A stretch of 64,000 nt of DNA, taken from NCBI RefSeq assembly GCF_011682235.2, contig NZ_CP076718.1, forward strand, positions 3,706,400-3,770,399. Direction: 5' to 3'. Source of the stretch: Rhodocaloribacter litoris (GTDB taxonomy: Bacteria; Bacteroidota; Rhodothermia; Rhodothermales; ISCAR-4553). The notes under the pieces are model-generated. The model was not told the origin of the DNA. It saw nothing but the letters and a program-made list of their open reading frames with translations, and did no database searches. Shown here piece by piece: positions 37,360 to 58,226 of this stretch (its first letter is position 1; each line of letters opens with the position of its first letter). The position numbers and the translations under genes were made by a program.

Positions 37360-37388
37360 TTGACAGGAGAGGGTAGGTGTTTTAATTT
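37360..37388 (+). promoter_or_regulatory. susC promoter
   Basis: Perfect -35 TTGACA (37360-37365), 17-base spacer and TAATTT (37383-37388). The inferred transcript start near 37395 lies about five bases before the 15-bp operator motif. Confidence 0.6.
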
Positions 37389-37399
37389 GCTCATAAAGA

Positions 37400-37419
37400 G
37401 ATAATATGACTTTATCATA
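37400..37419 (+). promoter_or_regulatory. Candidate GntR operator upstream of susC
   Basis: GATAATATGACTTTA (37400-37414) matches two other sites in the locus. This copy also contains two dyads: GATAA-N7-TTATC and the perfect TATGA-CTTTA-TCATA (37405-37419). Its position just after the promoter fits a repressor roadblock. Confidence 0.6.
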
Positions 37420-40460: not shown

Positions 40461-40516
40461 CCGGCGCCGGCTGCAGCCAGCCGGTAGGTCTTTCTCCCCC
40501 TGTTTCGACTGACACC

Positions 40517-42241
40517 ATGAGCGCAATGAAACGCTTCTCCCGTGTTCTACTCCTCCTGCTGGGTGCTGTGCTGGGGCTCTCGGCCTGCGACGTGCTCGAG
40601 GAGGAGATCGTCTCCGGCATCACCGTCGATGCCTACTATAACACCCCGCAGGGACTCCGGGACGCCGTCAATGCCTCCTACTCCTTCCTGCGCAACTTCT
40701 ATGCGGACGAACAGGGCGCCAACCTGACCGTCTTCGGCACCGACGCCACCACGAATGGAGGGCATGGCTCCTTCCAGTACATGAACCAGTACACGGCCCA
40801 GCTCAACGGCGACGCCACACCGGTGAACGTGCTCTGGGATGTCTTCTACACCGGGATCAACACGACCAATGCTGCCATCAGCCGGGCCGCGGAGATCACG
40901 GACATGTCCGAGGCCGAAAAAAACCGCCTCGTCGGGGAGGCGAAATTTCTCCGGGCGCATTTCTACTTCATCCTGGTGCAGACCTTCGGCCCGGTGCATC
41001 TGACGCTGGAGGAAACGCAGGGGATGGAACTGGAGGCGAACCGCACGCCGGAGCCGGGGATCTATGACGCCATCGAGCAGGACCTGCGTGATGCGATTGC
41101 GGCACTGCCGGCCACACCTCCACAGTGGGGCCGGGCCACCGAACCAGCCGCCAAACACATGCTCGCGCTCGTGCTGCTGACGCGTGCCTGGAAAAAAACC
41201 CTGCCCACCAACCTCAACGGCTGGGGAAGTGCACCGGGGCGTCCGGCCGAGGCGGACTTCACCGAGGCCTATGAACTGGCCCGCAGCGTCATCGAGGACT
41301 ATAACTTCCACCTGCTCGACCGTTATGCGGCCGTCTTTGACCACGACAACGAACAGCATGCGGAGGTCATCTGGTCCGTCCAGTATAACCAGGACCCTCG
41401 CCTGAACGGGTTCGACGGCAGCGGCAACCCGCTCGGTAACCGCATGCATCTCTTCTTCCGCCCGCACTACGAATTTTACAATCCCGGCATCACGCGCTCG
41501 CTCGAACCCGGCTACGGACGGCCGTGGATCCGCTTTCGGCCGACGCAGTGGGGGTTGGAAAACTTCCGCGCCGCCGCACCCCTTGATGTCGATTGCCGCT
41601 ACCATGACATTTTCCAGGACGTCTGGTACTACAACGATCCGAACAACGGCAACATGCCGCCGGGGGCAGCCGTCGGAGACACGGCCATCTGGGTCTCGCC
41701 GAATAACGGCATCACCCCGGAGGAGATCCAGGCCATTCGCGAGCGTAACCCCGGTGCCGTGATCACCACCTGGGAACAGCGCCCCATTAACCTGTTTCCC
41801 TCCCTGAAGAAATTCGACGACTGGAAACGGGAGTCCGTCAACTATACGGCCGGCTCGCGGGATTTCATCGTCTATCGCCTGGCAGAGACCTACCTGAATG
41901 CCGCCGAGGCCCTGCTCATGCTCGGGCGCACCGCCGAAGCCACGGCATACGTGAATGCCGTCCGACGGCGAGCCGCCTGCCCTGGCGTCGGCAACGAGGC
42001 GATCGACATCACACCGGTCCAGCTCGACCTGGATTTCCTCCTGGATGAACGATCCCGCGAACTCTATGGCGAGCAAAAACGCTGGTTCGACCTCAAGCGT
42101 ACGGGTAAGCTGCTCGAACGCACCCGGAAATATAACCCGGAAGCCGCCCCCAACATCCGGGAATATCACCTGCTCCGTCCCATCCCCACGAACCAGATTC
42201 TCAGAAGCTTCCCCCGCTATCCACAGAATCCGGGCTACTGA
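40517..42241 (+). CDS. SusD/RagB-type surface glycan-binding lipoprotein
   Basis: Lid protein of the SusC transporter that captures oligosaccharides at the cell surface. It has 574 residues with a lipobox LGLSAC (lipidated Cys 24), followed by the acidic DVLEEE region. Helical TPR-like segments follow (for example NRLVGEAKFLRAHFYFILVQ), and the C-terminal RagB block includes LDERSRELYGEQKRWFDLKR. ATGs at 40517 and 40526 are both possible starts. It is paired with susC. Confidence 0.93.
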   Translation: MSAMKRFSRVLLLLLGAVLGLSACDVLEEEIVSGITVDAYYNTPQGLRDAVNASYSFLRNFYADEQGANLTVFGTDATTNGGHGSFQYMNQYTAQLNGDATPVNVLWDVFYTGINTTNAAISRAAEITDMSEAEKNRLVGEAKFLRAHFYFILVQTFGPVHLTLEETQGMELEANRTPEPGIYDAIEQDLRDAIAALPATPPQWGRATEPAAKHMLALVLLTRAWKKTLPTNLNGWGSAPGRPAEADFTEAYELARSVIEDYNFHLLDRYAAVFDHDNEQHAEVIWSVQYNQDPRLNGFDGSGNPLGNRMHLFFRPHYEFYNPGITRSLEPGYGRPWIRFRPTQWGLENFRAAAPLDVDCRYHDIFQDVWYYNDPNNGNMPPGAAVGDTAIWVSPNNGITPEEIQAIRERNPGAVITTWEQRPINLFPSLKKFDDWKRESVNYTAGSRDFIVYRLAETYLNAAEALLMLGRTAEATAYVNAVRRRAACPGVGNEAIDITPVQLDLDFLLDERSRELYGEQKRWFDLKRTGKLLERTRKYNPEAAPNIREYHLLRPIPTNQILRSFPRYPQNPGY

Positions 42242-42281: not shown

Positions 42282-42336
42282 TTGAACAAGCAACGCCATT
42301 GTGATTAGCTTGGGATATAGAGATAAAATGACTTTA
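42282..42336 (+). promoter_or_regulatory. Promoter and candidate operator of the dehydratase-GH67-SDR unit
   Basis: TTGAAC (42282-42287), 18 bases, TAGCTT (42306-42311), then GATAAAATGACTTTA (42322-42336), the 15-bp motif shared with susC and gntR. The geometry (motif ~11 bases after the -10) is the same as at the other two sites. It suggests a separate start inside the 160-base gap after susD. Confidence 0.5.
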
Positions 42337-42401: not shown

Positions 42402-43649
42402 ATGCGAATAGTCGATATCCGGGCCACTCCCGTGTCGGTGCCGTTGGAGGCGCCGCTGCGGCATGCCAACGGGTGCCACTGGGGGCGGTTCGTGCGGACG
42501 ATCGTCGAGGTGGAGACGGACGAAGGGCTGGTCGGGCTCGGTGAGCTGGGCGGTGGGGGCGAGAGCGCTACGGCCGCCGTCGCCGCCCTGAAGCCGTATC
42601 TGCTCGGGCACGACCCGGCCCGGCTCGAAGAGCTGCGCTTTCTGATTGCGAACCCGACGGCCTCGCTCTACAACAACCGCCTCCAGGTGGCCGCCGCCGT
42701 CGAGTTCGCCTGCCTGGACTTGCTGGGGCAGCAGTGGGAGGTGCCCGTCTCGGAGATCCTGGGCGGGCGCCTGCGCGACCGCATCCCCTTTGCCGCCTAC
42801 CTCTTTTTCCGGTATCCGCATCCCACGAACGGTGTGCGGGAGGTGCGGACCATCGAGCAACTCATCGAGGAGGCCCGGACCCTGAAGCGTCGCTACGGGT
42901 TCCAGACGTTCAAGCTCAAGGGCGGCGTGTTTCCCCCCCGTTACGAGCTCGCGTGCTTCCGGGCCCTGGCCGAAGCCCTGCCGGAGGACCGGCTCCGCTT
43001 CGACCCGAACGGAGTGTGGTCCGTCGAACAGGCCGTCTGGTTCGGCCGGCAGATCGAAGACCTGGCAAACGACTACTTCGAGGATCCCGTCTTCGGACTG
43101 CACGGTATGCGACGCGTCCGGGAAAAGGTGCGCCTTCCGCTGGCCACGAACACGGTCGTCGTCAACTTCGAACAGCTCGCCGCCAACGTCCTCGACACGG
43201 CCGTCGACGTCATCCTGCTGGACACGACGTTCTGGGGCGGCATCCGGCCGTGCCTCAAGGCAGCGGCCATCTGCGAGGCGTTCGGGTTCAGCGTGGGGGT
43301 GCATTCCTCCGGCGAGCTGGGCATCCAGCTGGCGACGATGCTGCACCTGGGCGCGGTGCTACCCAACCTGACCTTCGCCGCCGACGCACATTACCATCAC
43401 CTGACGGACGACATCATCGAAGGGGGCAAGATGACCTACGCAGAGGGTACGCTGGCCGTCCCAACAGGGCCGGGACTCGGGGTCCGCCTCGATCGGGAGC
43501 GGGTGGCCCGCTATCATGAGCACTACCTTCGCCTGGGCAATTATCCGTACGACCAGGACCCGCTCCGGCCCGGCTGGGCGCCGCTGATCCCGAACGACCG
43601 CTGGGCTGACCCGGCCGATGCGCGGGTGCCGGAGATCCGGGTCTGTTGA
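42402..43649 (+). CDS. Enolase-superfamily sugar-acid dehydratase (glucarate dehydratase-like)
   Basis: A 415-residue member of the mandelate racemase/enolase superfamily, closest in motifs to D-glucarate dehydratase. It has K171-x-K173 (TFKLKGG), metal ligands D201 (FDPNGVW), E227 (YFEDP) and N250 (LATNTVV), then D274 and H301 ([13 protein letters not shown]). The likely reaction is loss of water from glucarate or a related sugar acid. Beside an alpha-glucuronidase gene it would process the released glucuronic acid, either after oxidation to glucarate or by acting on another acid. The exact substrate is inference. Confidence 0.82.
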
Positions 43650-43657
43650 GGAGCGGC

Positions 43658-45889
43658 ATGAACGAGCTTCGACACGATCGAGACCGGCGGTGCGCCGGCC
43701 CGGGGGGCGCAGCGCCTCTCCTGACGCTTCTGGGGCTCCTGCTGGTCCTGCTGCCGGTGCCGGCGGCAGGGGACAGGGCCCCGGTGCCGGACGAGCCGGG
43801 CGAGGACGGCTATGAGCTGTGGCTCCGCTACCGCCTCGTGGAGGATGCCACCCTGCGGGCGCATTATCGCACGCGTCTGGCCGAGGTGGTGGTCGCCGGC
43901 GAGACGCCCACGGCGGCGGCCGTGCGACGCGAGCTGCGGTGCGGGCTGCGCGGGCTGCTGGGCGAGACCGTTCCCGAGGCCGGCGCGGTCTCCCGCGACG
44001 GGGCGCTCGTGGTGGGCACGCCGGCCGCATCCCCCCTCATCGCCGGGCTGGGGCTGGACCTGGACGCCCTCGGCCCCGAAGGCTACCGCCTGCTCGACAC
44101 GACCGTCGACGGGCGGCGCCTGCTCGTGGTGGCGGCCGCCACCGAAGTGGGGACCCTCTACGGCACGTTCCACCTGCTGCGCCTGCTCCAGCTCCACCGG
44201 CACCTCGACGGCCTCGACGTCGCCGCGGCGCCCCGGGTACGCCACCGCGTGCTCAACCACTGGGACAACCTGGACCGCACCGTCGAGCGCGGCTATGCGG
44301 GCTTCTCCCTCTGGGACTGGCACAAGCTGCCGGACTATCTCGACCCCCGCTACACCGACTATGCCCGCGCCAACGCTTCCCTCGGCATCAACGGAACCGT
44401 CCTGACGAACGTCAATGCCAACGCCCTGGTACTCACCCCCATGTACCTGGAGAAGGCCGCCGCGCTGGCCGGCGTCTTCCGTCCCTATGGCCTCCGCGTC
44501 TACCTGACGGCCCGCTTCAGCGCGCCCATCGAGATCGGCGGGCTCGCCACCGCCGACCCCCTCGACCCGGCCGTACGAGCCTGGTGGCGCGACAAGGTGG
44601 CCGAGATCTACCGCTATATCCCCGACTTCGGCGGGTTCCTCGTCAAGGCCAACTCGGAGGGGCAGCCCGGCCCCCAGGACTACGGCCGCAGCCACGCCGA
44701 CGGCGCCAACATGCTGGCCGAGGCCCTGGCCCCCTACGACGGCATCGTCATGTGGCGGGCCTTCGTCTACGCCGCCGACAAGCCCGAGGACCGCGTCAAG
44801 CAGGCCTACAACGAATTCGTCCCGCTCGACGGGCAGTTCCGGGACAACGTCCTCGTGCAGGTCAAGAACGGCCCGCTCGACTTTCAGCCTCGCGAGCCGT
44901 TCCACCCCCTCTTCGGGGCGATGCCCCGCACGCCCCTCATGATGGAGTTCCAGATTACCAAGGAGTACCTGGGGTTCGCCACACACCTGGTCTACCTGGC
45001 GCCGATGTGGACGGAGGTGCTCACCGCCGACACCTACGCCCGGGGGCCGGGGTCGACCGTCGCCCGCGTCGTCGACGGCACGCTCCACGGCTACACCCGC
45101 ACCGGCATCGCCGGCGTGGCCAACACCGGTACCGACCGCAACTGGACCGGCTCGCACTTCGACCAGGCCAACTGGTATGCCTTCGGACGGCTCGCCTGGG
45201 ACCATACCCTCTCCCCCGACACCCTTGCCGGTGAGTGGATCCGCCTGACGTTCACGCACGATCCGGCTTTCGTCCGGCCGGTGAAGCAGATGATGCTCGG
45301 CTCCCGGGAGGCCGCCGTCAACTACATGACCCCGCTGGGGCTGGCGCACCTGATGGGGCCGGGGCATCACTACGGCCCCGCACCCTGGTACGACGACGCC
45401 CCCCGTGCCGACTGGACCGCCGTCTACTACCACCGCGCCGACACCCTCGGCATCGGCTTCGACCGCACCGCCACCGGCAGCAACGCCGTCAGCCAGTACT
45501 TCCCGCCCCTCGACTCGATCTACGGGCACCTCGACACCGTGCCGGAGAAATTCCTGCTCTGGTTTCACCACGTCCCGTGGGATCACCGGATGGCCTCCGG
45601 CCGGACCCTCTGGGACGAACTGGTGCACCGCTACACGGCCGGCGTGGAGGCCGTCCGGGCCATGCGGGCCACGTGGCGGCAGCTCGAGGGCCTGATCGAC
45701 GCGCGGCGCTACGAACAGGTGGCGGCTTTCCTGCGTATCCAGGAAAAAGAGGCCCGCTGGTGGCGGGATGCCTGCGTGTCGTATTTTCAGACGTTTTCGC
45801 GTCGCCCGATCCCGGCAGGGCTGGAGCCGCCCGCGCACCCGCTCGACCATTACCGCGCGCTCCGTTTCCCCCACGCCCCCGGTATCTGA
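43658..45889 (+). CDS. GH67 alpha-glucuronidase
   Basis: Removes (4-O-methyl-)glucuronic acid from the non-reducing end of glucurono-xylooligosaccharides. It has 743 residues with a hydrophobic signal segment ([20 protein letters not shown]). Family marks are [20 protein letters not shown], the acid Glu 334 in [10 protein letters not shown], Asp 408 ([12 protein letters not shown]) and Glu 436 ([10 protein letters not shown]), which align with the catalytic residues known for GH67. The ATG at 43658 follows AGGAG; a TTG at 43646 is less likely. It lies 8 bases after the dehydratase gene, so they are co-translated. Confidence 0.95.
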
Positions 45890-45924
45890 CGGCTTTCCCG
45901 GGAGATACCGGGCAAAATCGCGGG

Positions 45925-45957
45925 TTGCATGGGGGCACGGCTTCCGGGCCCATGCAA
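45925..45957. repeat. Hairpin between GH67 and SDR genes
   Basis: TTGCATGGG (45925-45933) and CCCATGCAA (45949-45957) form a perfect 9-bp stem, extendable by two more pairs counting a G-U. It sits in the 101-base gap before the SDR gene with no T run after it. A role in message processing or stability is possible. Confidence 0.45.
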
Positions 45958-45990
45958 TCTGCACGACGCATCGCTCACCCAGAAGAACCC

Positions 45991-46809
45991 ATGCCCGGAA
46001 CGAATCCGTTTGATCTGACCGGCCGCGTCGCCGTGGTGACGGGCGGGTACGGGGTGCTGGGCAGCCGGATGGCCGAAGCCCTGGCCGGCGCCGGGGCGAA
46101 GGTGGCCGTCCTCGGTCGCCGCCCCGAGGCGGCCGCAGCGTGCGCGGAGGCCCTGTGCCGCACCGGCGCCGAGGCGATCCCGCTGATCGCCGACGTGCTC
46201 GACGAGGCCGCGCTCCGCCGCGCCTGCGACGCGTTACTCGACGCCTGGGGCCGTGTCGACATCCTGATCAACGCGGCCGGCGGCAACGTGGCCCGGGCCC
46301 GCACCGACGACGTGCCCGTCTTCACCCTGCCCTTCGACGCCTTCGACGAGGTCGTCCGGCTCAACCTGCACGGTACCGTCTATCCGACGCTCATCTTCGG
46401 CGAGGCCATGGCGCGGCAGGGGACGGGCAGCATCGTCAACATCTCGTCCATGGCCTCGTTTCAGGCCCTCAGCGGGGTGATGGGCTACTCCGCCGCCAAG
46501 GCCGCCATCGATAACTTCACCCGGTGGATGGCCGTGGATCTGGCCCGGCGCCACGGCGAGGGCCTGCGCGTGAATGCCATCGCGCCGGGCTTCTTCATTA
46601 CCCGGCAGAACCGCGACGTGCTGCTCAACCCGGACGGCTCGTACACGGAGCGGACGCAGAAGGTCATCGCGAAGACCCCGATGGGACGCCTCGGCCGGCC
46701 GGAGGAGTTGCAGGGGCCGGTGCTCTGGCTCTGCAGCGACGCCGCCTCGTTCGTCACCGGCGCCGTCATCCCGGTCGACGGCGGCTTCAGCGCCTTCAGC
46801 GGTCTCTGA
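45991..46809 (+). CDS. SDR oxidoreductase, probable fructuronate/mannonate reductase
   Basis: Classical short-chain dehydrogenase of 272 residues. It has the cofactor motif TGGYGVLGSRMAEALAGAG, INAAGGN, and the catalytic Ser (NISSMAS), Tyr 166 and Lys 170 (GYSAAK). The C-terminal AIAPGFFITRQNRDVLLNPD and KTPMGRLGRPEEL are typical of proteins annotated as D-mannonate oxidoreductase. In this locus it would reduce fructuronate to mannonate after GH67 releases glucuronate. A uronate dehydrogenase role, feeding the glucarate dehydratase-like enzyme, is the main alternative. Confidence 0.8.
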   Translation: MPGTNPFDLTGRVAVVTGGYGVLGSRMAEALAGAGAKVAVLGRRPEAAAACAEALCRTGAEAIPLIADVLDEAALRRACDALLDAWGRVDILINAAGGNVARARTDDVPVFTLPFDAFDEVVRLNLHGTVYPTLIFGEAMARQGTGSIVNISSMASFQALSGVMGYSAAKAAIDNFTRWMAVDLARRHGEGLRVNAIAPGFFITRQNRDVLLNPDGSYTERTQKVIAKTPMGRLGRPEELQGPVLWLCSDAASFVTGAVIPVDGGFSAFSGL

Positions 46810-46844: not shown

Positions 46845-48377
46845 TCATCCCGGGGCGGCGGTGTCCCGGGCCGGCTCGGCGGGTTGCTCGCGGCCGGCCG
46901 TGAAGAGGGGTTCGAGGGCCGGATAGAGACGGCGGAAGGTGTCGTAGGCCGCCTCGTACCGCTCGACGGCTTCGGGATGCGGCTCGGCGACGGGCGTGCA
47001 GGTGAGGGTCGCCGCGCAGGCTGCGTCTACGTCGGGCCAGGCGCCGGTCCCGGCGGCGGCCAGCAGGGCCGCGCCGTAGGCAGCGCCCTCGGTGGTTTGC
47101 GGGGCCGTCAGGGGCAGGCCCAGCACGTCGGCCAGGATCTGGCGCCAGAGGGGGCTGCGGGCGCCGCCGCCCGAGAGGCGCACCTCCGCCGGCGGCGGGA
47201 CGCCGGCCTCGCCGAGCAGCCGGAGGTTGTCGCGCAGGCCGAAGGCCACCCCTTCGAGCACGGCGCGGGTGGCGTGGCCCCGCCCGTGGCGCAGCGTGAA
47301 GCCGAAGAAGACGCCGCGCGCGAAGGGATTGGCGTGAGGCGTGCGCTCGCCGGAGAGGTAGGGGAGAAAGGCGGCGCCCTCACAGCCGGGCGGCACGCCG
47401 GCAGCCTCGGCCAGGAGGACGTCGTAGTCGAGCTCCGGGGCGAAGGTGTCGTGGTACCAGCGGAGGCTGCCCGCGGCCGAGAGCATCACGCCCATCAGGT
47501 GCCAGCGGCCGGGCACGGCGTGGGGGAAGGCGTGGGCGCGGCCGCGCGGGTCGGTGAGCGGCCGTGTGGCCGGGGCGAAGACCACGCCGGAGGTGCCCAG
47601 CGTGAGCGCCAGGATGCCCGGCGCCACCGCCCCGACGCCGACGGCCTGCGCGGCCTGATCGCCGCCGCCGGCCACCACCGGCGTGCCCGCGCGGAGGCCG
47701 GTGACGGCGGCGGCCTCCGGCGTGACGGTGCCGGTCACCTCCGGCCCTTCGTGCGTGGGGGGCAGCCAGGCCCGCGGGATCTCGAGCGCCGCCAGCACCT
47801 CGTCGCTCCAGTCGCGCCGCTGCAGGTCCAGCAGCAGCGTGCCGCCGGCCCCGGCGCGGTCGGTGGCATAGCCGCCCGTGAGGCGGAAGCGGACGTAATC
47901 CTTCGGCAGGAGGACCTGTGCGACCCGCCGGTAGACGTCGGGCTCATGCCGGCGCACCCACAGCAGCTTGGGCGCGGTGAAGCCGGGGAAGGCGTCGTTG
48001 CCGGTGAGGGCCACCAGGCGGTCGAGGCCGAGGCGGGCGCGGATGTCGTCACACTCCGCACTCGCCCGCCCGTCGTTCCACAGGATGGCCGGGCGCAGGA
48101 CCCGTCCTGCCGCGTCGAGCAGCACCAGCCCGTGCATCTGCCCCGTCAGGCCCACGGCTTGCACGGCGTCGCCGGTGAGGCCGGCGGCGGCGAGGGCCTG
48201 TGCCGTGGCAAGGCCGGTGGCCTCCCACCACGCGGCGGGGTCCTGCTCGCTCCAGAGCGGGCGCGGCGTGGACAGATCGTGCGGTGCGGAGGCCACGGCC
48301 GCCACCCGCCCCGCCTCGTCGATGAGCAGGGCCTTGGTGGCCGTCGTCGAGACGTCGATGCCCAGGAAATGGCTCAT
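46845..48377 (-). CDS. xylB: Xylulokinase
   Basis: FGGY-family kinase of 510 residues that phosphorylates D-xylulose to xylulose 5-phosphate. It opens FLGIDVSTTATKALLIDEAG, has GLTGQMHGLVLLDAAG with the conserved catalytic-loop region, ILWNDGRASAEC, and the C-terminal FGGY signature region (LSGGGARSPLWRQILADVLG). It is the last gene of the minus-strand xylan operon, 27 bases after the isomerase gene. Confidence 0.93.
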   Translation of the reverse strand: MSHFLGIDVSTTATKALLIDEAGRVAAVASAPHDLSTPRPLWSEQDPAAWWEATGLATAQALAAAGLTGDAVQAVGLTGQMHGLVLLDAAGRVLRPAILWNDGRASAECDDIRARLGLDRLVALTGNDAFPGFTAPKLLWVRRHEPDVYRRVAQVLLPKDYVRFRLTGGYATDRAGAGGTLLLDLQRRDWSDEVLAALEIPRAWLPPTHEGPEVTGTVTPEAAAVTGLRAGTPVVAGGGDQAAQAVGVGAVAPGILALTLGTSGVVFAPATRPLTDPRGRAHAFPHAVPGRWHLMGVMLSAAGSLRWYHDTFAPELDYDVLLAEAAGVPPGCEGAAFLPYLSGERTPHANPFARGVFFGFTLRHGRGHATRAVLEGVAFGLRDNLRLLGEAGVPPPAEVRLSGGGARSPLWRQILADVLGLPLTAPQTTEGAAYGAALLAAAGTGAWPDVDAACAATLTCTPVAEPHPEAVERYEAAYDTFRRLYPALEPLFTAGREQPAEPARDTAAPG

Positions 48378-48404: not shown

Positions 48405-49583
48405 TCAGGAGAGGCTGGTCGTCGCCGGCTCGACGGAGCGGAGCGTTTCCTCGATCGGGGGCAGCACCAGGCCCTGCGGCGCCCGGGCCCGGATCAGGTA
48501 CGCCTCGATGAAACCCCGGTGCCGGGCCGGGTTCAGGGTTGCCTCCACGATGGCGGCGTGGTCCAGCCGGTTGATGCGCTCGTTCGCCGCCCGGAGCGCG
48601 TCCATCGAGATCTTCAGCGCCACGTCCACCGGCATCCGCTCCGGGTTGATGTCGATGCCGAAGTGGCCCGTGTAGCCATGCATCTTGAGCGTGTAGAGGC
48701 CGGCCTCCATCTGCTCGGGCGAGATGACGCCCACGTTCAGGTCCTGGTCATAGTTGCCCAGCGGCTGGCTGTTCCAGTGCGTGTGTGCCAGGCGGCCCTC
48801 CGAAAGCGGCCAGGACAGCGCGTAGGACACGTCCTCGTAGCCCATGAGCAGGTGCCCGATCTCGGGGTTCATGCCCACGAGTTTGTGCCCTTCGGCGAGC
48901 AGGCGGCGGTTCTCTTCATGGGTGAGCATCGCCTCCACCTGGTGGCCGAGGAGCACCCCCTCGGGGGTCGTCGAGTAGAGGATGCGGCCGCGCGGCTCGT
49001 ACGGTTTCGGCTCGAAGGCGATGCGCACGCCCGGCACGGCGTCCATCGCCTCGGCCAGCCCCTCGGCGAAGCGCCGGCGCATGGCCGCCACGTCGATCCC
49101 GAAGGGGTTCTCATACCCGTCGATGCCGGGCCAGACGACCGCGAAGTCGCCGTCGAGCGCTTTCGTCAGGGCCAGCGAGGCCTTCGTGCGCTCGATGGCC
49201 TTGCGGCGCACCTGCGGATCGGGGTTCGAGAGGGAGCCGAACTCGAACTCGGCGTCGTAGAAGAGCAGCGGGATGACCGTGACGAGGCGGATGCCGGTGT
49301 CGCGGGTGAACTGCTGCCAGACGGCCAGGTTGTCCTCGTTGATCTCGTTGGGGTAGTGGGCCTCCAGGCCGGCGAGGCCGTAGTCCTTCAGTGAGGCCGC
49401 GATCTCCAGGCGGGCTTCCAGCGGCAGGTCGGGCTTGTACTTGGCGTGGAAACGGCTGTCCGGCGGGGAGAAGAACCAGATGCCGGCGGTGAACTTGAGG
49501 TCCAGTTCAAACCGGTTCAGGTGGTCGATGAGGGCCTCGGGCGAGCGGGACTCGGCCTGGCCGCGCAGGTCTTGCAGAGGCAT
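48405..49583 (-). CDS. xylA: Divergent xylose isomerase (TIM barrel)
   Basis: A 392-residue TIM-barrel isomerase close in size to class I xylose isomerases. Conserved active-site positions are His 76 (EAHYPNE), Glu 191/Lys 193 (FEPKPYEPRGR), Glu 241 and His 244 (GMNPEIGH), Asp 279/Asp 281 (NYDQDL) and Asp 311 (FGIDINPER). Two signatures deviate: WPGIDGYE replaces the usual WGGREG, and HTHWNSQ replaces HIDLNGQ, so a metal-ligand Asp is His. It sits between GH3 and xylulokinase genes, so conversion of xylose to xylulose is most likely; a related aldose is possible. Confidence 0.82.
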   Translation of the reverse strand: MPLQDLRGQAESRSPEALIDHLNRFELDLKFTAGIWFFSPPDSRFHAKYKPDLPLEARLEIAASLKDYGLAGLEAHYPNEINEDNLAVWQQFTRDTGIRLVTVIPLLFYDAEFEFGSLSNPDPQVRRKAIERTKASLALTKALDGDFAVVWPGIDGYENPFGIDVAAMRRRFAEGLAEAMDAVPGVRIAFEPKPYEPRGRILYSTTPEGVLLGHQVEAMLTHEENRRLLAEGHKLVGMNPEIGHLLMGYEDVSYALSWPLSEGRLAHTHWNSQPLGNYDQDLNVGVISPEQMEAGLYTLKMHGYTGHFGIDINPERMPVDVALKISMDALRAANERINRLDHAAIVEATLNPARHRGFIEAYLIRARAPQGLVLPPIEETLRSVEPATTSLS

Positions 49584-49673: not shown

Positions 49674-52283
49674 TCACCGGGGCCGGACGTCGATCGTCGT
49701 TTCGAGCCGGAGGTCTGCGGAGGAGGCGCCGGCCAGCAACCGTACCGGTCCGGGCTCGAGCACCCATTGTGCGGCGGCTTCGTCCCAGTAGCGCAGTTCC
49801 GAAGCGGGCAGGCGGAGCACGACGGTGCGTGTCTCGCCGGGGGCAAGCGTCAGCCGGTCGAACCCCTTGAGTTCGAGGCGGGGGCGGGGGACGGACGAGG
49901 CCGGGTACTGGACGTAGAGTTGAACCACCTCGTCCCCGGTGCGCTCCCCCGTGTTGGTGACGTCGAGGAGGAGGGTGAGCGTGTCGCCGTCCGAGAGGGT
50001 GTTCCGGTCCGTGCGCAGGCCCGCATACGCGAAGGTGGTGTAACTGAGGCCGTGGCCGAACGGATAGAGCGGTGTGCCTTCGAAGAAGCGGTAGGTGCGC
50101 CCCTTCATGGTGTAGTCTTCGAAGGGAGGCAGGTCTTCGGTGCGGCGGTAGAAGGTGACGGGCAGGCGCCCGCCGGGGCTGGCATCCCCGAAGAGGATGT
50201 CGGCCAGGGCGGTGCCGGCGGCCTGGCCGGGGTACCAGGCTTCGACGATGGCCGGCACGTGGGCGCCCGCCCACGGGATGGCGAGGGCGCCGCCATTGAG
50301 CAGGACGAGCACCGTGGGCTTGCCCAGGGCCACGATCCGTTCGAGGAGCCGCTGCTGGGGGCCGGGCAGGTCGAGCCGGGTGCGGTCGCCGCCCCGGAAC
50401 CCCTCGACGGCGACGTCCATCTCTTCGCCTTCGAGGCGGGGCGAGAGGCCCAGAAAGAGGATCACGGCGTCGGCCGTGCGGGCCACCTCGACGGCCTCGG
50501 TTGCCAGGTCGCCGGTGGGGGCGTCCCAGACGAGCTGTACCTGGGCGTCGCCGTAGCCTTCGTGTGCCTCCAGCCGGAGCGCATAGTCCCGCCCGGCATC
50601 CAGGTGCATCGGTCCGGCCGCGACGACGCGCGGGTCGCCCAGCTCGTCCATGTACCGGTAGCTGGAGCGGATGAGGAGGCTGTCGTCGAGGTGGAAGGTG
50701 AACCTGCTCGTGGCGATGACGCCGAGGGTGTAGGTGCCGCTCCGGGCGGGGCGGAGCGTGCCCGTCCAGCGCACGGCGAAGTCGTCGTCGTCGAAGTCCG
50801 GATGGGGGGCGCGATCGTGCCAGTTGGCGTCGAGGGTGGTGTCGCGGCCGGTGAAGCGGGGCGGGCCCGCCATGGCGCGGTTGTCGAAGTATTCGACATG
50901 GAGGCCGGGGCGTCCGTCCGGGCCGAAGAGGACGCCGGCCGGGACGACGTCGAAGTGGGGGAAGTCGTCGGCGAGGCGGCTGCCGCGGGCATGGCGCACC
51001 ACGGTGGTGGGGGCCACGGCGCGGCGGATGCCTTCGAGCGGGGTCACCAGCGTGCCCGGCACCCCGTTGTAGTTGCCCAGCAGCATCAGCCATTGATCGG
51101 CGTTCGGGCCGATGACGGCCAGGGTGTCGAGGTCTTTGCGCAGGGGCAGCACCCCGTCGTTCTTGAGCAGGACGATGGACTTGCGTGTCACCTCACGGGC
51201 CAGGGCCCGGTGTGCTTCACGGTCGACCACCTCGTACGGGATGGCCGCATACGGAACGCGTTCCGGCGGGTCGAACATGCCGAGGCGGAAGCGGGCGCGA
51301 AAGAGCCGTCGCACGGCCGCGTCGATCTCGGCTTCGCTGACCAGGCCCTGCCGGACAGCCTCGACGAGGTGAGGGTAGACCTGGTTGCCGCAGTCGAGGT
51401 CGGTGCCGGCCTTCAGGGCCATCGCCGCCGCCTCGACCGGCGTGTCGACGAGGCGGTGGTTGCGGTAGAGGTCGTCGAGCGCCCAGCAGTCCGAGACGAC
51501 GTAGCCGTCGAAGGCCCATTCGTCCCGCAGGATATCCTGCAGGAGGGTGGGGCTGGCACAGGCCGCCTCGCCGCCGACCCGGTTGTAGGCACACATGACC
51601 GACCGGGCACCGCCCTCGCGCAGGCCCCGCTCGAAGTGGGGCAGGTACGTTTCCCGGAGGTCGCGCGGGCCGACGACGGCATTGAAGGTGTGGCGTTCCG
51701 GCTCCGGGCCGCTGTGTACGGCAAAGTGCTTCACTGTGGCAACGGTCTTCAGGTAGCGGGGATCGTCTCCCTGCAGGCCCCGGACGAAGGCGACGGCCAG
51801 GCGGCCGGTCAGGTACGGGTCCTCACCATAGGTCTCCTGCCCGCGCCCCCAGCGGGGATCGCGGAACAGGTTGATGTTCGGGGACCAGAACGTCAGCCCC
51901 TGATAGCGGTAGTGCTTGCCTTTGCGGGCGTAGACGTGGTACTTGGCCCGGCCCTCGTCCGAGATGGCGACGGCCACGCGGTGGAGCAGCGTGTCGTCCC
52001 ACGTCGCCGCAAGCCCGATAGCCTGGGGGAACACGGTTGCCAGCCCCGAGCGGGCCACCCCGTGCAGGGCCTCGTTCCACCAGTTGTAGGCGGGGATTCC
52101 GAGCCGTTCGATGGCCGGCGAGGCGTTCGTCATCTGGGAGACCTTCTCCTCCAGCGTCATGCGGCCGAGCAGGTCGTCCAGCCGTTCTTCCAGCGGGAGG
52201 TCCGGGTTCCGGAAGGGGAAGGGCTGGGCGGCCGCCGCGCAGGCGGCCAGCAGCAGGATGAGCGCCGGAAGCGTTCGGGTCAT
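49674..52283 (-). CDS. Secreted GH3 beta-xylosidase/beta-glucosidase with PA14 domain
   Basis: An 869-residue GH3 enzyme. It has an N-terminal export signal (LPALILLLAACAAAAQ; LAAC could be a lipobox at Cys 15) and a GH3 N domain with nucleophile Asp 265 (YVVSDCWALDD) and VKHFAVHSGPE. A GH3 C domain follows, interrupted by a PA14 sugar-binding domain (~455-590), then a fibronectin III-like end. EHAxN-type details resemble plant/bacterial beta-xylosidases (NWWNEALHGVARSG). In this locus it should trim xylo-oligosaccharides in the periplasm or at the surface. The ATG at 52283 was chosen because the upstream frame is non-homologous and Arg/Pro-rich. Confidence 0.92.
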   Translation of the reverse strand: MTRTLPALILLLAACAAAAQPFPFRNPDLPLEERLDDLLGRMTLEEKVSQMTNASPAIERLGIPAYNWWNEALHGVARSGLATVFPQAIGLAATWDDTLLHRVAVAISDEGRAKYHVYARKGKHYRYQGLTFWSPNINLFRDPRWGRGQETYGEDPYLTGRLAVAFVRGLQGDDPRYLKTVATVKHFAVHSGPEPERHTFNAVVGPRDLRETYLPHFERGLREGGARSVMCAYNRVGGEAACASPTLLQDILRDEWAFDGYVVSDCWALDDLYRNHRLVDTPVEAAAMALKAGTDLDCGNQVYPHLVEAVRQGLVSEAEIDAAVRRLFRARFRLGMFDPPERVPYAAIPYEVVDREAHRALAREVTRKSIVLLKNDGVLPLRKDLDTLAVIGPNADQWLMLLGNYNGVPGTLVTPLEGIRRAVAPTTVVRHARGSRLADDFPHFDVVPAGVLFGPDGRPGLHVEYFDNRAMAGPPRFTGRDTTLDANWHDRAPHPDFDDDDFAVRWTGTLRPARSGTYTLGVIATSRFTFHLDDSLLIRSSYRYMDELGDPRVVAAGPMHLDAGRDYALRLEAHEGYGDAQVQLVWDAPTGDLATEAVEVARTADAVILFLGLSPRLEGEEMDVAVEGFRGGDRTRLDLPGPQQRLLERIVALGKPTVLVLLNGGALAIPWAGAHVPAIVEAWYPGQAAGTALADILFGDASPGGRLPVTFYRRTEDLPPFEDYTMKGRTYRFFEGTPLYPFGHGLSYTTFAYAGLRTDRNTLSDGDTLTLLLDVTNTGERTGDEVVQLYVQYPASSVPRPRLELKGFDRLTLAPGETRTVVLRLPASELRYWDEAAAQWVLEPGPVRLLAGASSADLRLETTIDVRPR

Positions 52284-52303: not shown

Positions 52304-53476
52304 TCAGGGACGGGCGGACAGCATCGAGTCGGCCACGTGGACGACGGCATGGAAGGCGGGTTTGGGGCGGTAGTGGCGGTCGAAGAGGAGGGGGTAGGTC
52401 GTCCGCCCGGCGATGGGCCAGTTGTTGAGCCACGAGTCGCCGTCGGTGACGCCCCAGAAGGTGACGCGCTCGAGGACGTCGCGGTGTTCGAGGAAGACCC
52501 TGAAGAGTGCCGCGTACCGCCGGGCCAGGGCCTGTTGCACCGAGTCGGGCAGGGCGTCCGGGTAGGGGTTCAACTCGTTGCGCAGCTCGGCCCGCTGTGT
52601 GATGTCGGCACCCCAGTACTGGCGGGGCCGGGGCAGCACGGCCAGGTCCAGCTCGGTGACCATGACGTCCAGGCCGAGGTCGCCGAAGGCCCGGAGGGTG
52701 GCCGCCTGGGCCTCGGGCGTGGGCACATCCGGCGCCAGATGGTGGTGTCCCTGCGTGCCGATGCCGGTGATCGGCACACCCTGCTCCATCAGCCGGCGCG
52801 CCAGCCGCACGGCGCCGTCCCGCTTGGCCGGGTTTTCCAGGCCGTAGTCGTTGTAATACAGCTCCGCATCGGGGTCGGCCTCGTGCGCGAAGCGAAACGC
52901 CATCGCCAGGTACTCCTCGCCCAGGATCCGGAGCCAGGGCGTCGCGCGCAGCGTGCCGTCCTCGTTCAGCGCCTCGTTCACCACGTCCCAGCCGTGCACC
53001 CGCCCCCGGTAGCGTCCCACGACCGTGTGGATGTGGTCGCGCAGGCGCGCGCGCAACACCTCGCGGGAGACGGGGGCGCCGGTGCTATCCTCGAAGACCC
53101 AGCGCGGCGTCTGGTTGTGCCACACCAGCGTGTGCCCGACGATGAACATGCCGTTCTCCTCCCCGAACGCCACGAACCGGTCCGCCGCCTCGAAGTCGTA
53201 CCGGTCCGGCTCGGGATGGATCAGTTCCCACTTCATCACGTTCTCCGGCGTGATCGTGTTGAAGTGCTTCTTGACGAGCGCCGCCCCCAGGGAATCTCGC
53301 TCGTAGAACTGTTCGGGGTTCAGCGCCGCCCCGATGAGGAACGCTCCCTCGAAGACGTCCTTCAACGCCGGCTCCGGGTCGGCGGCGGGACCGGAGGCGG
53401 GCGGCTCACAGGCCGCCACGAACGGCAGGGTTGCCAGCAACAGCACGGGCCTCAGCCCGTCGAGACGGTAGGGCAT
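52304..53476 (-). CDS. GH10 endo-1,4-beta-xylanase, lipoprotein
   Basis: Endo-xylanase that cuts the xylan backbone. It has 390 residues with a lipobox FVAAC (Cys 23), so it is lipid-anchored, probably at the outer membrane surface. GH10 marks are HFNTITPENVMKWE, GHTLVWHNQTPRWV, acid/base Glu 168 (WDVVNEAL), TGIGTQGHHH, nucleophile Glu 275 (VTELDL) and FWGVTDGDSWLNNWP. It has no carbohydrate-binding module. It lies 20 bases upstream of the GH3 gene and 19 bases after the transporter gene, within one operon. Confidence 0.95.
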   Translation of the reverse strand: MPYRLDGLRPVLLLATLPFVAACEPPASGPAADPEPALKDVFEGAFLIGAALNPEQFYERDSLGAALVKKHFNTITPENVMKWELIHPEPDRYDFEAADRFVAFGEENGMFIVGHTLVWHNQTPRWVFEDSTGAPVSREVLRARLRDHIHTVVGRYRGRVHGWDVVNEALNEDGTLRATPWLRILGEEYLAMAFRFAHEADPDAELYYNDYGLENPAKRDGAVRLARRLMEQGVPITGIGTQGHHHLAPDVPTPEAQAATLRAFGDLGLDVMVTELDLAVLPRPRQYWGADITQRAELRNELNPYPDALPDSVQQALARRYAALFRVFLEHRDVLERVTFWGVTDGDSWLNNWPIAGRTTYPLLFDRHYRPKPAFHAVVHVADSMLSARP

Positions 53477-53495: not shown

Positions 53496-54953
53496 TCAGG
53501 GGGTGGACGAAAGGGGTGCGTCTTCGCCGGACCGGCGCGTCAGGTCCGCTTCGATCTGGAGCATCATCCGGCCGGTCAGGGGGTAGGCAAGCATGATGAG
53601 GCCGCCCGCGATGCCGAAAAGGGCCGGGTAGAAGCTCATGAGCAGGCGGATGCCGAAGAGGGCCGTCTCGGACTGTGCGGTGCCGGCCTCGAACCCGTGC
53701 AGTCCCAGGATCCACCCGACCAGGGCACCGCCGAACGTGAGCCCGAGTTTCAGCATGAACAGCGAGGCTGCCATGATGAGGCCGGTGGCCCGCCGCCCGA
53801 ACTTCCACGCGCCGTAGTCGGCCGTGTCCGTGTAGATGGCCCATTGCAGCACCGACACCGAGCCGAAGAAGAACGACAGGAGCACGTTCAGGCCGTAGAT
53901 GAGCAGCACGTTCTCCGGCGCGAGCGGGAAGAAAAGGACGGACAGCAGGGCACTGGCGATGAGGAAGCCGGAATAGATGCTTTTGTTGTCCCACCGCTTC
54001 GTGAACAGCCCGGTACAGATCGCCCCGATCAGGGTGGAGACCGTCCCCACCGTGACGAAGGAGGACGTGAAGACGGTGTAGTTCAGGTCGAGGGTCAGCC
54101 CGAACAGGGTGAGTTGCTGGTCCTGAACGAAGTAGCGGAAATAGTAGGGGGTGGCCGAGCCGCGCATGACGATGTAGGTCAGCTGGAAGACCGTGGCGAC
54201 GCCGATCAGCACCCAGGGGCGGTTGCGGAGGAGGTCCTTCAGGTCCTCGCCGATGCGGCCCTGCTGGGCCGGAGTCGGCTGCACGCGCTCGCGCGTCAGG
54301 AAGAAGGTCGTCAGCAGGAGCCCGGCCACGAGCACCCCGTAGACCGCCATCGTGTAGGGCCAGCCGAGCCGTTCGTCGCCGCCGCCGAGGCGGTCCACCA
54401 GCGTCAGCGCCGTGGCCCCGATGATGAACTGTCCGATGAAGGCGGCCACGAAGCGGTAAGTGGAAACCTCCGTGCGCTCCACCGAGCTGGGCGTGATGAC
54501 GCCCATCAGCGCCGAATAGGGCACGTTGACGGCCGTGTAGAACACGACGAGCAGCATGTAGGTCACGTAGGCGTAGACCAGCTTGCCCGTCTCGCCCAGG
54601 TCCGGGGTCGTGAAGGCCAGCACGCCGCCCACCGCCAGCGGGATGGCAAACCCGGCGATGTAGGGCCGGAACTTGCCCCAGCGCGTCCGGGTCCGGTCTG
54701 CGATCATCCCCATGAGGGGGTCGCCCACCGCGTCAAAGATGCGGGTGACCAGCAGCATCGTGCCCATGGCGGCCGCCGAAAGGCCGAAGACGTCCGTGTA
54801 GAAGATGGGCAGGAAGACGACGAAGGTCTGGAAGTAGATGTTGGAGGCCAGGTCGCCCAGGCTGTAGCCGACCTTCTCCCGGAGGGTCAGGCGCGGGCGG
54901 CTGCGGTCGAGGACGGGCACGGCGAGGGCCGGCGTGTTCGGGTGCGGTTTCAT
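53496..54953 (-). CDS. GPH-family sugar:cation symporter
   Basis: A 485-residue, 12-helix inner-membrane transporter of the glycoside-pentoside-hexuronide family (MFS). Typical segments are KVGYSLGDLASNIYFQTFVV at the N terminus, DAVGDPLMGMIADRTRTRWG and FRPYIAGFAIPLAVGGVLAF. It probably imports xylose, xylobiose or hexuronide with a cation. It is encoded between GH3 and GH10 genes on the same strand and is the only inner-membrane sugar transporter in the locus. Confidence 0.92.
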   Translation of the reverse strand: MKPHPNTPALAVPVLDRSRPRLTLREKVGYSLGDLASNIYFQTFVVFLPIFYTDVFGLSAAAMGTMLLVTRIFDAVGDPLMGMIADRTRTRWGKFRPYIAGFAIPLAVGGVLAFTTPDLGETGKLVYAYVTYMLLVVFYTAVNVPYSALMGVITPSSVERTEVSTYRFVAAFIGQFIIGATALTLVDRLGGGDERLGWPYTMAVYGVLVAGLLLTTFFLTRERVQPTPAQQGRIGEDLKDLLRNRPWVLIGVATVFQLTYIVMRGSATPYYFRYFVQDQQLTLFGLTLDLNYTVFTSSFVTVGTVSTLIGAICTGLFTKRWDNKSIYSGFLIASALLSVLFFPLAPENVLLIYGLNVLLSFFFGSVSVLQWAIYTDTADYGAWKFGRRATGLIMAASLFMLKLGLTFGGALVGWILGLHGFEAGTAQSETALFGIRLLMSFYPALFGIAGGLIMLAYPLTGRMMLQIEADLTRRSGEDAPLSSTP

Positions 54954-55007: not shown

Positions 55008-57362
55008 TCATGTCACGTGCAACATGATCCGCTGGAGATCTTCGTCCCGCGAGGACGAGCCGACCATGATCTCGAAGTCGCCCGGCTCGACGACGTAGTT
55101 CATGTTGAGGTCATGGAAGGCCAGGTGCTCCGGGGTCAGGTCGAACGTCACGGTGCGGGTCTCGCCGGGGGCCAGGTGCACCCGCTCGAAGCCCCGCAAC
55201 TCCTTCACCGGCCGGGTCACCGAGCTGACGCAGTCCCGGATGTAGAGCTGGACGACCTCCGCGCCGGCACGGTCGCCGGTGTTGGTCACGTCGATCCGGA
55301 CGCGTGCGGTGCCGTCGCGCGGGATCGTTGCCGGCTCCAGGCGCAGGTTCTCCAGGGCGAAGGTGGTGTAGCTGAGTCCGAAGCCGAAGGGAAAGAGCGC
55401 CGAGGCGTCGTCGAAGAGGTAGCCGCGCCGTGCCGAGGGTTTGTGGTTGTAGAAGACGGGCAGGTGCCCCACCGAGCGGGGTATGCTGATGGGGAGCTTG
55501 CCGCCCGGGCTGGCGTCGCCGAAGAGGACGTCGGCCACGGCGTGGCCCGTTTCCTGGCCCAGGTACCAGCATTCGAGCAGCGCGGGGGCGTGTTCGGCCA
55601 GGTACGGCACCGAGAGCGGGCGACCGCCCAGCAGCAGTACCACCGTGGGCTTGCCCAGCGCGAGCACGGCTTCGGCCAGCTCCTGTTGCTGCCCGAAAAG
55701 ATCGAGGCTCGTGCGGTCGCCCAGGTGGGTGCGGGACCATGCCTCGCGGGCGGTCTGCTCGTTGCCGCCGAGCACCAGCACCACGGCGTCGGCCTCGCGG
55801 GCCGTCGCCACGGCCCCGGCGATCCGGCGCCGGTCCTCCTCGGGGTCCGGCCGTACCACCGTGTCTTCGTGCCACGACCCGCCGACGGTGATCTGGCAGC
55901 CTTCGTGGTAATGCACCGCCACGCGGTCGCCGAGCCGGGCGCGGAGCCCGTCGAGCACCGTCACGTTGTGTTTCGGGACGCCGCTGTAGCCGCCGAGCAG
56001 GCTCCGGTGCGCGTTGGGACCGATGACGGCCAGCGTGCGGAGACGCGCCGGGTCCAGGGGCAGGACGTCGTCGTTCTTCAGCAGGATGATGGCCTCGGTG
56101 GCGGCCCGGCGCGCCAGCGCCCGGTGTTCCGCACAGCCGGCCAGGCGTTCGGCTTCGTCCGGGTCCACGTACGGATCCTCGAACAGGCCCAGCCGGAACT
56201 TCCAGGCGAGCATCGGGGCCACCAGCGCGTCCAGCTCGGCCTCCTCCAGCAGGCCTTCGCGCACCAGCTCGGCCAGGTGCGGGTAGCAGTCCGGGTCGGG
56301 CAGCTCGATGTTGACGCCGGCGCGTACCGCCAGCAGGGCCGCCTCCTTCCTGTCGCGGGCCACGTGATGGCCGTGCGTCTCGGGCCGGTCGAACAGCTCC
56401 AGGATGGCGTAGTAGTCCGAGACGACGAAGCCTTCGAACCCCCACTCGCCGCGCAGCACGTCGCGCAGCAGCCAGCGGTTGGCGTGCGAGGGGATGCCGT
56501 CGATCTCGTTGTAGGAGGCCATGACGCTGGCAGCGCCGGCCTTCCGGACGGCTTCCCGGAACGGATGGAGGAAGACGTCGCGCAACTCGCGCTCCGAGAC
56601 GTTCACCGGCCCGCAGTTCATGCCGCCTTCCGGCTGCCCGTGTGCGGCGCAGTGCTTCAGCGTGGCGAGCACGTGCCGCCCGTCCCGGAAGGTGCCGTCG
56701 CCCTGGAAGCCGCGCACGGCCGCCACGCCCAGGGTGGCCACCAGGAACGGGTCTTCGCCGAACGTTTCTTCGACGCGGCCCCAGCGCGGGTCGCGGGCCA
56801 CGTCCAGGACGGGCGTCAGCGCCTGGTGCACGCCGCGCGCCCGGGCTTCGCGGGCGGCCATCGCATAGAGGGCCTCCACCAGGGCCGGGTCGAACGTGGA
56901 GGCCAGGGCGATCGGCTGCGGGAAGCTCGTGGCCCCGACGGCCGCCAGCCCGTGCAGGCACTCCTCGTGAAAGAGGACCGGGATGCCGAGGCGCGTCTCC
57001 TCCAGGAAGAACCGCTGGATGGCATTCGCCAGCGCGGCCTGTTCGCGGGCGGTGCGGCCCTTCTCCGGTTCGTGCCCGCTCGTGCCGGCGTCACTCGGGC
57101 GCCCCACCTGCCCGAGGCCGTGCCGGGCCACGAACGAGGCCCGCGCCAGCGCCGGGTCGAACCGCCCCTGCGCGTCGACGAGGGTGCCGGTCTTTTGCTG
57201 CCAGAGGCACAGCATCTGGGCCACCTTCTCTTCCAGGGTCATCCGCGCCAGCAGGTCGCGGACGCGCTCCGGCACCGGCCGCGCCGGGTCGCGGTACGGC
57301 GCGGCGGCCGGCACCTCCGGCTCGCTTATCTCCCCGGAAGATCGTTTATTGAAAAGATGCAT
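55008..57362 (-). CDS. GH3 beta-glycosidase without signal peptide
   Basis: A 784-residue GH3 enzyme, probably cytoplasmic, since the start at 57362 (MHLFNKRSSGEISEP) has no export signal. It has the GH3 N domain with LKHCAAHGQPEGG and nucleophile Asp 316 (FVVSDYYAI), a GH3 C domain (AIILLKNDDVLPLDPARLRT) and a C-terminal fibronectin III-like domain. It has no PA14 insert, unlike the second GH3 of the operon. It would hydrolyse imported xylobiose or aryl-xylosides. It is the first gene of the minus-strand operon, read from a promoter in the divergent region shared with gntR. Confidence 0.92.
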   Translation of the reverse strand: MHLFNKRSSGEISEPEVPAAAPYRDPARPVPERVRDLLARMTLEEKVAQMLCLWQQKTGTLVDAQGRFDPALARASFVARHGLGQVGRPSDAGTSGHEPEKGRTAREQAALANAIQRFFLEETRLGIPVLFHEECLHGLAAVGATSFPQPIALASTFDPALVEALYAMAAREARARGVHQALTPVLDVARDPRWGRVEETFGEDPFLVATLGVAAVRGFQGDGTFRDGRHVLATLKHCAAHGQPEGGMNCGPVNVSERELRDVFLHPFREAVRKAGAASVMASYNEIDGIPSHANRWLLRDVLRGEWGFEGFVVSDYYAILELFDRPETHGHHVARDRKEAALLAVRAGVNIELPDPDCYPHLAELVREGLLEEAELDALVAPMLAWKFRLGLFEDPYVDPDEAERLAGCAEHRALARRAATEAIILLKNDDVLPLDPARLRTLAVIGPNAHRSLLGGYSGVPKHNVTVLDGLRARLGDRVAVHYHEGCQITVGGSWHEDTVVRPDPEEDRRRIAGAVATAREADAVVLVLGGNEQTAREAWSRTHLGDRTSLDLFGQQQELAEAVLALGKPTVVLLLGGRPLSVPYLAEHAPALLECWYLGQETGHAVADVLFGDASPGGKLPISIPRSVGHLPVFYNHKPSARRGYLFDDASALFPFGFGLSYTTFALENLRLEPATIPRDGTARVRIDVTNTGDRAGAEVVQLYIRDCVSSVTRPVKELRGFERVHLAPGETRTVTFDLTPEHLAFHDLNMNYVVEPGDFEIMVGSSSRDEDLQRIMLHVT

Positions 57363-57418: not shown

Positions 57419-57448
57419 TTGACGTGCGAAGGCTCCACGGTGTATCTT
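57419..57448 (+). promoter_or_regulatory. gntR promoter
   Basis: TTGACG (57419-57424), 18 bases and TATCTT (57443-57448); the inferred start near 57455 precedes the operator motif. A 7-bp inverted repeat (CTCCACG 57433-57439, CGTGGAG 57449-57455) overlaps the -10 and the start point. Confidence 0.45.
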
Positions 57449-57461
57449 CGTGGAGGCGACT

Positions 57462-57480
57462 CATAATATCACTTTACGAT
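57462..57480. promoter_or_regulatory. Candidate GntR operator in the divergent GH3/gntR region
   Basis: CATAATATCACTTTA (57462-57476) differs from the susC site at only two of 15 positions. On the plus strand it lies just after the inferred gntR start; on the minus strand it covers the -10 and spacer of the GH3 promoter. A bound regulator would therefore affect both directions. Confidence 0.6.
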
Positions 57481-57491
57481 TTACCCGTCAA
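57463..57491 (-). promoter_or_regulatory. Promoter of the GH3-GPH-GH10-GH3-xylAB operon
   Basis: On the minus strand TTGACG (57486-57491), exactly 17 bases and TATTAT (57463-57468) form a near-consensus sigma70-type promoter about 95 bases upstream of the GH3 start. The candidate operator lies inside it. Confidence 0.65.
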
Positions 57492-57503: not shown

Positions 57504-58226
57504 ATGAGCGCAGGCTTTGCTCCGGTACAGAAGTCCAACCTGGCCGACGACCTGGCGGACCGGCTGGTGCAATTGATCCGTGCGCGGGGATACCAGCCGG
57601 GCGACCGGCTGCCGTCGATCATGGAGATGGCCCGCAGCTTCGGGGTGGGGCACCCCACGCTGCGCGAGGCACTGAAGAAGCTCGAGAGCATGGGTGTGGT
57701 GGAGATCCGCCACGGCGCCGGCGTCTACGTGGGCAGCGGTCACAACCGCCTGCTCGTCTCCAATCCGGTTTTCGGCGGGGAGGTCTCGAAGAAGCTGCTG
57801 CTCGACCTGGTCGAGGCGCGCATCCCGATCGAGACGACGGCGGTGACGCTGGCCGCCACCGCGGCGACCGAAGAGCACCTGGACCGGATGGCGGCGCTGC
57901 TGGCCCGGGCCGAGGCGAACATGGACAACGATGCGGTGCTCAGTGAGGCCAACATGGCCTTCCACCGGGAGATCGCCGTGGCTTCGGGCAACCTGGTGCT
58001 GGCCCAGATTCAGGAGGTGCTGACCCAGCTCTTCTCGCGTGAGCAGCGGGTGATTCTGGGGATCTACGGCTCGCGCGAGAAGGACCACCGGGAGCACCTG
58101 GGCATCCTCGACGCCCTGCGCCGCCGCGACGCCGGGCTGGCCGAGGAGCGGATGAAGACCCACCTGGAAGGTGTGCGCGACGTGCTGTTGCGCTGGGACC
58201 CGGAAAAGAACCCGTTGCCCGCCTGA
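57504..58226 (+). CDS. GntR-family regulator, FadR/FCD subfamily
   Basis: A 240-residue repressor-type regulator. The N-terminal winged HTH reads LVQLIRARGYQPGDRLPSIM and GVGHPTLREALKKLESMGVV. The C-terminal all-helical FCD effector domain includes LVEARIPIETTAVTLAA and the metal-binding histidines expected in FREIAVASGN-like (FHREIAVASG) and EHLGILDALRRRD. FCD regulators such as UxuR, ExuR and LldR sense sugar acids. AAGAGGA upstream supports the ATG at 57504. It is divergent from the xylan operon and is the best candidate to bind the 15-bp motif found at three promoters here. Confidence 0.92.
   Translation: MSAGFAPVQKSNLADDLADRLVQLIRARGYQPGDRLPSIMEMARSFGVGHPTLREALKKLESMGVVEIRHGAGVYVGSGHNRLLVSNPVFGGEVSKKLLLDLVEARIPIETTAVTLAATAATEEHLDRMAALLARAEANMDNDAVLSEANMAFHREIAVASGNLVLAQIQEVLTQLFSREQRVILGIYGSREKDHREHLGILDALRRRDAGLAEERMKTHLEGVRDVLLRWDPEKNPLPA

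Follow-up and report, generated by a model that had tools for sequence, protein, structure and literature searches.

In Escherichia coli, the divergent bioA/bioBFCD and argE/argCBH operons are transcribed from overlapping promoters that face each other, with one operator lying over both start regions. Divergons have also been described for GntR regulators of the FadR subfamily; in these, the transcription factor gene is divergent from its target operon and one intergenic palindrome is judged to serve both (Suvorova et al. 2015, PMC4494728). In the operator consensus of this subfamily, TKGT/ACMA boxes place GT and AC 2-3 nt apart, and the set analyzed by Suvorova and coworkers was without a FadR-type factor from Bacteroidetes and had no Gemmatimonadetes listed (PMC4494728). 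UxuR, ExuR and NanR of E. coli are FCD-type sugar-acid regulators. Among the closest described systems is AWN76_008220 of Roseithermus sacchariphilus RA, which adjoins GH3, GH10 and GH67 genes and is the orthologue, by locus order and organism, of the gntR gene studied here; it was already proposed to be a putative GntR repressor of the neighbouring GH genes (Liew et al. 2020, PMC7409140).

We analyzed the control region between this gntR gene and a divergent operon within a 64-kb stretch of DNA (the window), part of a 4.50-Mb genome (G000) that is a single contig and that belongs, judging by its named relatives, to the order Rhodothermales. The region is like the FadR-subfamily divergons in that the regulator gene and its predicted target operon diverge from a single intergenic palindrome, which we judge to serve both.

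Results

The gntR gene (57504-58226, plus strand) encodes a 240-aa protein with PF00392 (69 bits) and PF07729 (83 bits) domains, both above the gathering score, which places it in the FadR (FCD) subfamily. The first gene of the divergent, minus-strand operon encodes a GH3 beta-xylosidase/glucosidase (55008-57362); orthologue starts support a start at 57362, and an upstream ATG at 57464 falls within the promoter. It is followed by genes for a GPH-type glycoside/pentoside symporter (53496-54953; PF13347, TIGR00792 above cut-off), a GH10 xylanase (52304-53476; PF00331), a second, Xyl3A-like GH3 enzyme (49674-52283, start approximate), a xylose-isomerase-like TIM barrel (xylA, 48405-49583; PF01261, with a weak TIGR02631 match) and a xylulokinase (xylB, 46845-48377; TIGR01312 above cut-off). 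On the plus strand lie susC and susD (37494-42241; TIGR04056 above cut-off, PF07980) and a group (42402-46809) comprising an MR_MLE-family dehydratase-like gene, a GH67 alpha-glucuronidase and an SDR D-mannonate oxidoreductase-like gene of uxuB type (PF13378, PF07488; PRK08277 above cut-off). As annotated, the gene set as a whole is a glucuronoxylan-use locus. Across loci, the recurring neighbours of gntR were GH3, GPH, GH10, GH67, uxuB-like SDR, MR_MLE, SusCD and uxuA genes.

The original prediction placed two promoters between 57419 and 57491, and direct reading and a consensus scan supported both. The gntR promoter reads TTGACG-18-TATCTT on the plus strand (-35 at 57419-57424, -10 at 57443-57448, predicted start near 57455), and orthologues have TTGAC(A/G) in the equivalent position. 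The GH3-operon promoter reads TTGACG-17-TATTAT on the minus strand (-35 at 57486-57491, -10 at 57463-57468, predicted start near 57456); orthologues with a divergent GH3 gene carry TTGACG, TTGAAA or TTGTCG as the -35. The scan found 3 promoter-like sites in 4 kb, both switch promoters among them, and 0.2 in shuffled sequences. The plus -35 lies nearer GH3 and the minus -35 nearer gntR, so that the promoters stand face to face, with predicted starts one base apart. Two polymerases at such promoters should therefore exclude each other. The pattern TTGAC-N18-20-TAnnTT[GC] had two matches in the window (37360 and 57419; 0.08 expected), each directly before an operator, and the -10 form TAnCTTG resembles the Bacteroidota TAnnTTTG element. 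Because the MAFFT alignment of the plus promoters was poor, promoter positions in other loci are given relative to the operator.

The predicted GntR operator is a 17-bp imperfect palindrome, GACTCATAATATCACTT, at 57458-57474. Its position, its conservation 5' of gntR orthologues and a position weight matrix (PWM) all agree with the earlier proposal of one operator that follows the plus promoter and lies across the minus -10 and part of its spacer. The sequence CATAATATCACTTTAC is identical 5' of gntR in the window and in G006, G007 and G008, which represent four families of the order, while the flanks do not align; the core block TCATAATATCACTTTAC (57461-57477, plus strand) recurs without change in the orthologues of G006 and G008. 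The family consensus is AAGTCAT-NNN-ATGACTT, a clean palindrome outside the order, of which the window operator is a weakened or degraded copy (11/14 consensus positions). An exact search with GTGATAWTATNAN returned the window site only. Literature searches for the motif or for a matching UxuR-xylan operator yielded nothing relevant, the one AAGTCAT match inspected being a primer.

A hairpin had also been counted among the elements of the switch. The inverted repeat in question, CTCCACG-9-CGTGGAG, is present at 57433-57455, and we judge it to be a chance occurrence: the window contains 76 repeats of equal quality, which is the shuffle rate, and the orthologous regions that we compared have no counterpart of it.

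We then asked where else the operator occurs, using a symmetrised PWM trained on 21 gntR-proximal sites. In the 64-kb window only three sites scored strongly, at 37396 (26.2 bits), 57458 (24.7 bits) and 42318 (17.2 bits); the fourth-ranked site scored 8.3 bits, and the highest score among eight shuffles was 13.0 bits. The second operator, AAGAGATAATATGACTT (37396-37412, plus strand), stands before susC and after TTGACA-17-TAATTTG at 37360; the third, TAGAGATAAAATGACTT (42318-42334, plus strand), stands before the MR_MLE-GH67-uxuB-like operon and after TTGAAC-18-TAGCTTG. Both were outside the training set. Since all three strong sites precede xylan-use genes, they point to one glucuronoxylan regulon. 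A search of the whole genome with the symmetric Rhodothermota form, AAGTGATATTATCACTT, allowing up to 3 mismatches, returned two places, both within the window. Genome-wide matches to AAGTCAT-NNN-ATGACTT with 3 mismatches were at noise level (13 versus 19 for the reversed control).

Two operator-like sites were seen elsewhere in the genome. A good one, AAGTCATATTATGATTG (G000:C1:2693655-2693671; L112:5001-5017), lies outside the xylan locus, between lacI-type and TonB-dependent receptor genes, where no promoter of this layout stood out clearly. A weaker one, AATTCATATTATGATAT (G000:C1:515574-515590; L113:4001-4017), is at the 5' end of a transketolase gene; it would make sense for pentose use and may be due to chance. 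In relatives, further sites precede a CBM4_9-GH10 gene (a perfect operator, in Roseithermus) and a GH95 gene (G007).

The operator accompanies the regulator across phyla. A 60-genome sample contained eight gntR orthologues (53-70% identity) in seven relatives, and a wider scan added orthologues in Gemmatimonadota, a Calditrichia MAG and a Bacteroidetes MAG; the operator was found 5' of orthologous FadR-type gntR genes in all three of these groups and in Rhodothermota. In a Gemmatimonadota-centred sample of 99 genomes, the exact operator was present in 4 of the 12 genomes with gntR versus 1 of the 87 without. The GT and AC of the motif are 9 nt apart (GT-CAT-NNN-ATG-AC), which departs from the TKGT/ACMA pattern, the subfamily being defined by domains. 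Atypical operators occur in some accepted FadR-subfamily members too. This misfit with the subfamily consensus (PMC4494728) could mean that the site is owned by another DNA-binding protein. We consider this very unlikely, given that motif and gntR co-occur across phyla and that the exact sites in the four Rhodothermota genomes lacking gntR are all located within open reading frames. Furthermore, the unusual motif goes together with a loss of the G-reading arginines: in sequences aligned by eye, the position of FadR Arg-45 is His, Ala or Thr in 9/9 and that of Arg-35 is other than Arg in 8/9.

The position of the operator relative to promoters was compared across loci. Twenty-four of 26 operators begin within -6 to +9 of the start predicted for a TTGACA-N17/18-TAnCTT promoter (defined by a TTGAC-type -35, a spacing of 16-19 and a TAnCTT-like -10 just upstream of the operator), a score that 1.4% of random 62-mers from the same loci reach. 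An operator at the predicted start of a promoter is in a repressor position. Some FCD proteins are activators, for example CitO (PMC4746285), and GntR might activate one or both promoters; this is highly improbable, since the CitO sites are at -41 to -74, and here the operator is over the start region or the -10 in nearly all cases.

An opposing promoter was present at 9 of the 13 operators with a divergent neighbour versus 0 of the 13 without (Fisher p = 2e-4, an optimistic value because related loci are not independent). Opposing promoters were counted at a score of at least 9/12 with a -35 spacing of 16-18 nt; because the minus -10 comes from the operator itself, the test rests on the -35. 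Two of the nine, L032 and L015, are in another register, with the operator within the spacer. The minus promoter could be coincidental, its TATTAT being supplied by the operator consensus so that only the -35 is independent evidence, and GH3 would then be transcribed from elsewhere. This appears quite unlikely: a -35 at the required spacing is confined to loci that have a divergent gene, and TTGACG-17-TATTAT has no minus-strand competitor of similar score in the GH3-gntR intergenic region. In the four GH3-divergent loci, the minus promoter is the best minus-strand promoter by far.

Relative to the predicted starts, a dimer bound to 57458-57474 would occupy roughly +2 to +19 for gntR and roughly -2 to -18 for GH3. 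One operator thus lies over both predicted promoters, as in an autorepressed divergon. The comparison across loci upheld this part of the original prediction, that gntR and the GH3-GPH-GH10-GH3-xylA-xylB operon share one operator, placed so that it could repress either promoter; the hairpin found no support as part of the layout. In many Gemmatimonadota loci (L026, L028-L031, L034, L037, L040, L042, L043, L047 and L049), gntR follows a GH10 or other GH gene inside the xylan run and lacks a separate operator. Such loci speak against a repressor model, as does the weakness of the window copy.

Published RNA-seq data for R. sacchariphilus RA on beechwood xylan give values of 0.41 for gntR, 3.43 for GH3, 1.66 for GH10 and 1.70 for GH67 (PMC7409140). 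About two thirds of all genes changed in that experiment (PMC7409140), so single values are weak evidence. Simple autorepression predicts that gntR goes up upon induction; the gntR orthologue went down, the opposite of what joint derepression would give. The rise of GH3 and the fall of gntR are suggestive: they fit repression of the operon together with promoter exclusion, rather than simple symmetric autorepression. The opposite changes in Roseithermus (PMC7409140) would also be expected if the operator controlled the GH3 operon only, the fall of gntR on xylan then being due to a competing opposing promoter or to some general effect instead of autorepression. We regard this as unlikely, because the gntR start retains the operator in loci without a divergent gene (for example L024, L027, L033 and L053), making gntR a target there. 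A second GH10 gene of strain RA showed no differential expression (PMC7409140). This gene is probably the counterpart of the Roseithermus CBM4_9-GH10 gene, and its lack of response despite a perfect operator counts against the regulon reading.

Discussion

We conclude, with a probability of about 0.8, that this segment serves to control a glucuronoxylan-use regulon in which GntR represses at three sites, is released by an effector and leaves two promoters in competition. The anatomy of the segment, its conservation, the shared motif, the genomic co-occurrence and the opposite expression changes in the orthologue are established; from these we infer GntR binding, repression, the effector and promoter competition. 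According to this model, a FadR-type GntR dimer would occupy 57458-57474 when substrate is absent, covering the -10 and start region of the GH3 operon and the start region of gntR, so that RNA polymerase would be blocked at both. The same protein would block the susC promoter at 37396 and the MR_MLE-GH67-uxuB-like promoter at 42318. GntR would be released when its C-terminal domain binds a breakdown product, for which fructuronate or mannonate, sugar acids from the glucuronate branch, are the likeliest candidates; the promoters of the operon and of gntR would then be in competition.

The uxuB-like and uxuA neighbours (uxuA in L046) and the invariant histidines of the FCD domain suggest that the effector is such a sugar acid, from the glucuronate-mannonate branch. 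These histidines (His154, His198 and His220) are consistent, from sequence only, with metal binding, and their spacing resembles that of His148/196/218 of a Zn protein cited in PMC4746285. In a Gemmatimonadaceae MAG (L046:5992-9742), a perfect operator accompanies a gntR-uxuB-uxuA-uxuA run that starts with the regulator gene, a link to mannonate metabolism. In a Gemmatimonadetes MAG (L051:4470-7975), it stands with a divergent MFS transporter gene and a lactate-racemase-like (Lar_N) gene, and that regulator possibly responds to a different substrate.

A broader reading combines a new operator class, AAGTCAT-N3-ATGACTT, recognized by a helix without G-reading arginines in a clade of FadR-type regulators from Rhodothermota and Gemmatimonadota, with a reciprocal switch at divergent loci in which the inducer raises the xylan operon and polymerase exclusion lowers gntR. 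We put this forward tentatively, as somewhat less probable than even. If promoter exclusion is true, repressor synthesis drops as the operon is induced, which amounts to positive feedback within 73 bases. For phyla with few worked-out transcription factor sites, the analysis yields an operator, a regulon and a promoter consensus connected with the use of xylan and glucuronate; since the operator type does not conform to the FadR-subfamily consensus as published, it allows a test of the recognition code.

Compared with known systems, the geometry is that of the bio and arg control regions, with other regulators and pathways and with starts that are predicted only. NanR is the nearest NCBIfam model and solved structure; the operator sequence is unlike those of UxuR, ExuR and NanR, and gntR scores far below the equivalog or subfamily cut-offs (score/cut-off: NanR 135/260, LldR 105/311, PdhR 86/330, UxuR 67/442, ExuR 62/396). 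The divergons of Suvorova and coworkers differ in their boxes, in which GT and AC are 2-3 nt apart instead of 9 (PMC4494728). The account of AWN76_008220 gave no operator, promoter, site positions or regulon, unlike the present one (Liew et al. 2020, PMC7409140). Within the literature searched, the operator, the promoters, the regulon and the cross-phylum spread are new, and the predicted operator is of a type undescribed for the FadR family, set within an otherwise ordinary sugar-regulated switch.
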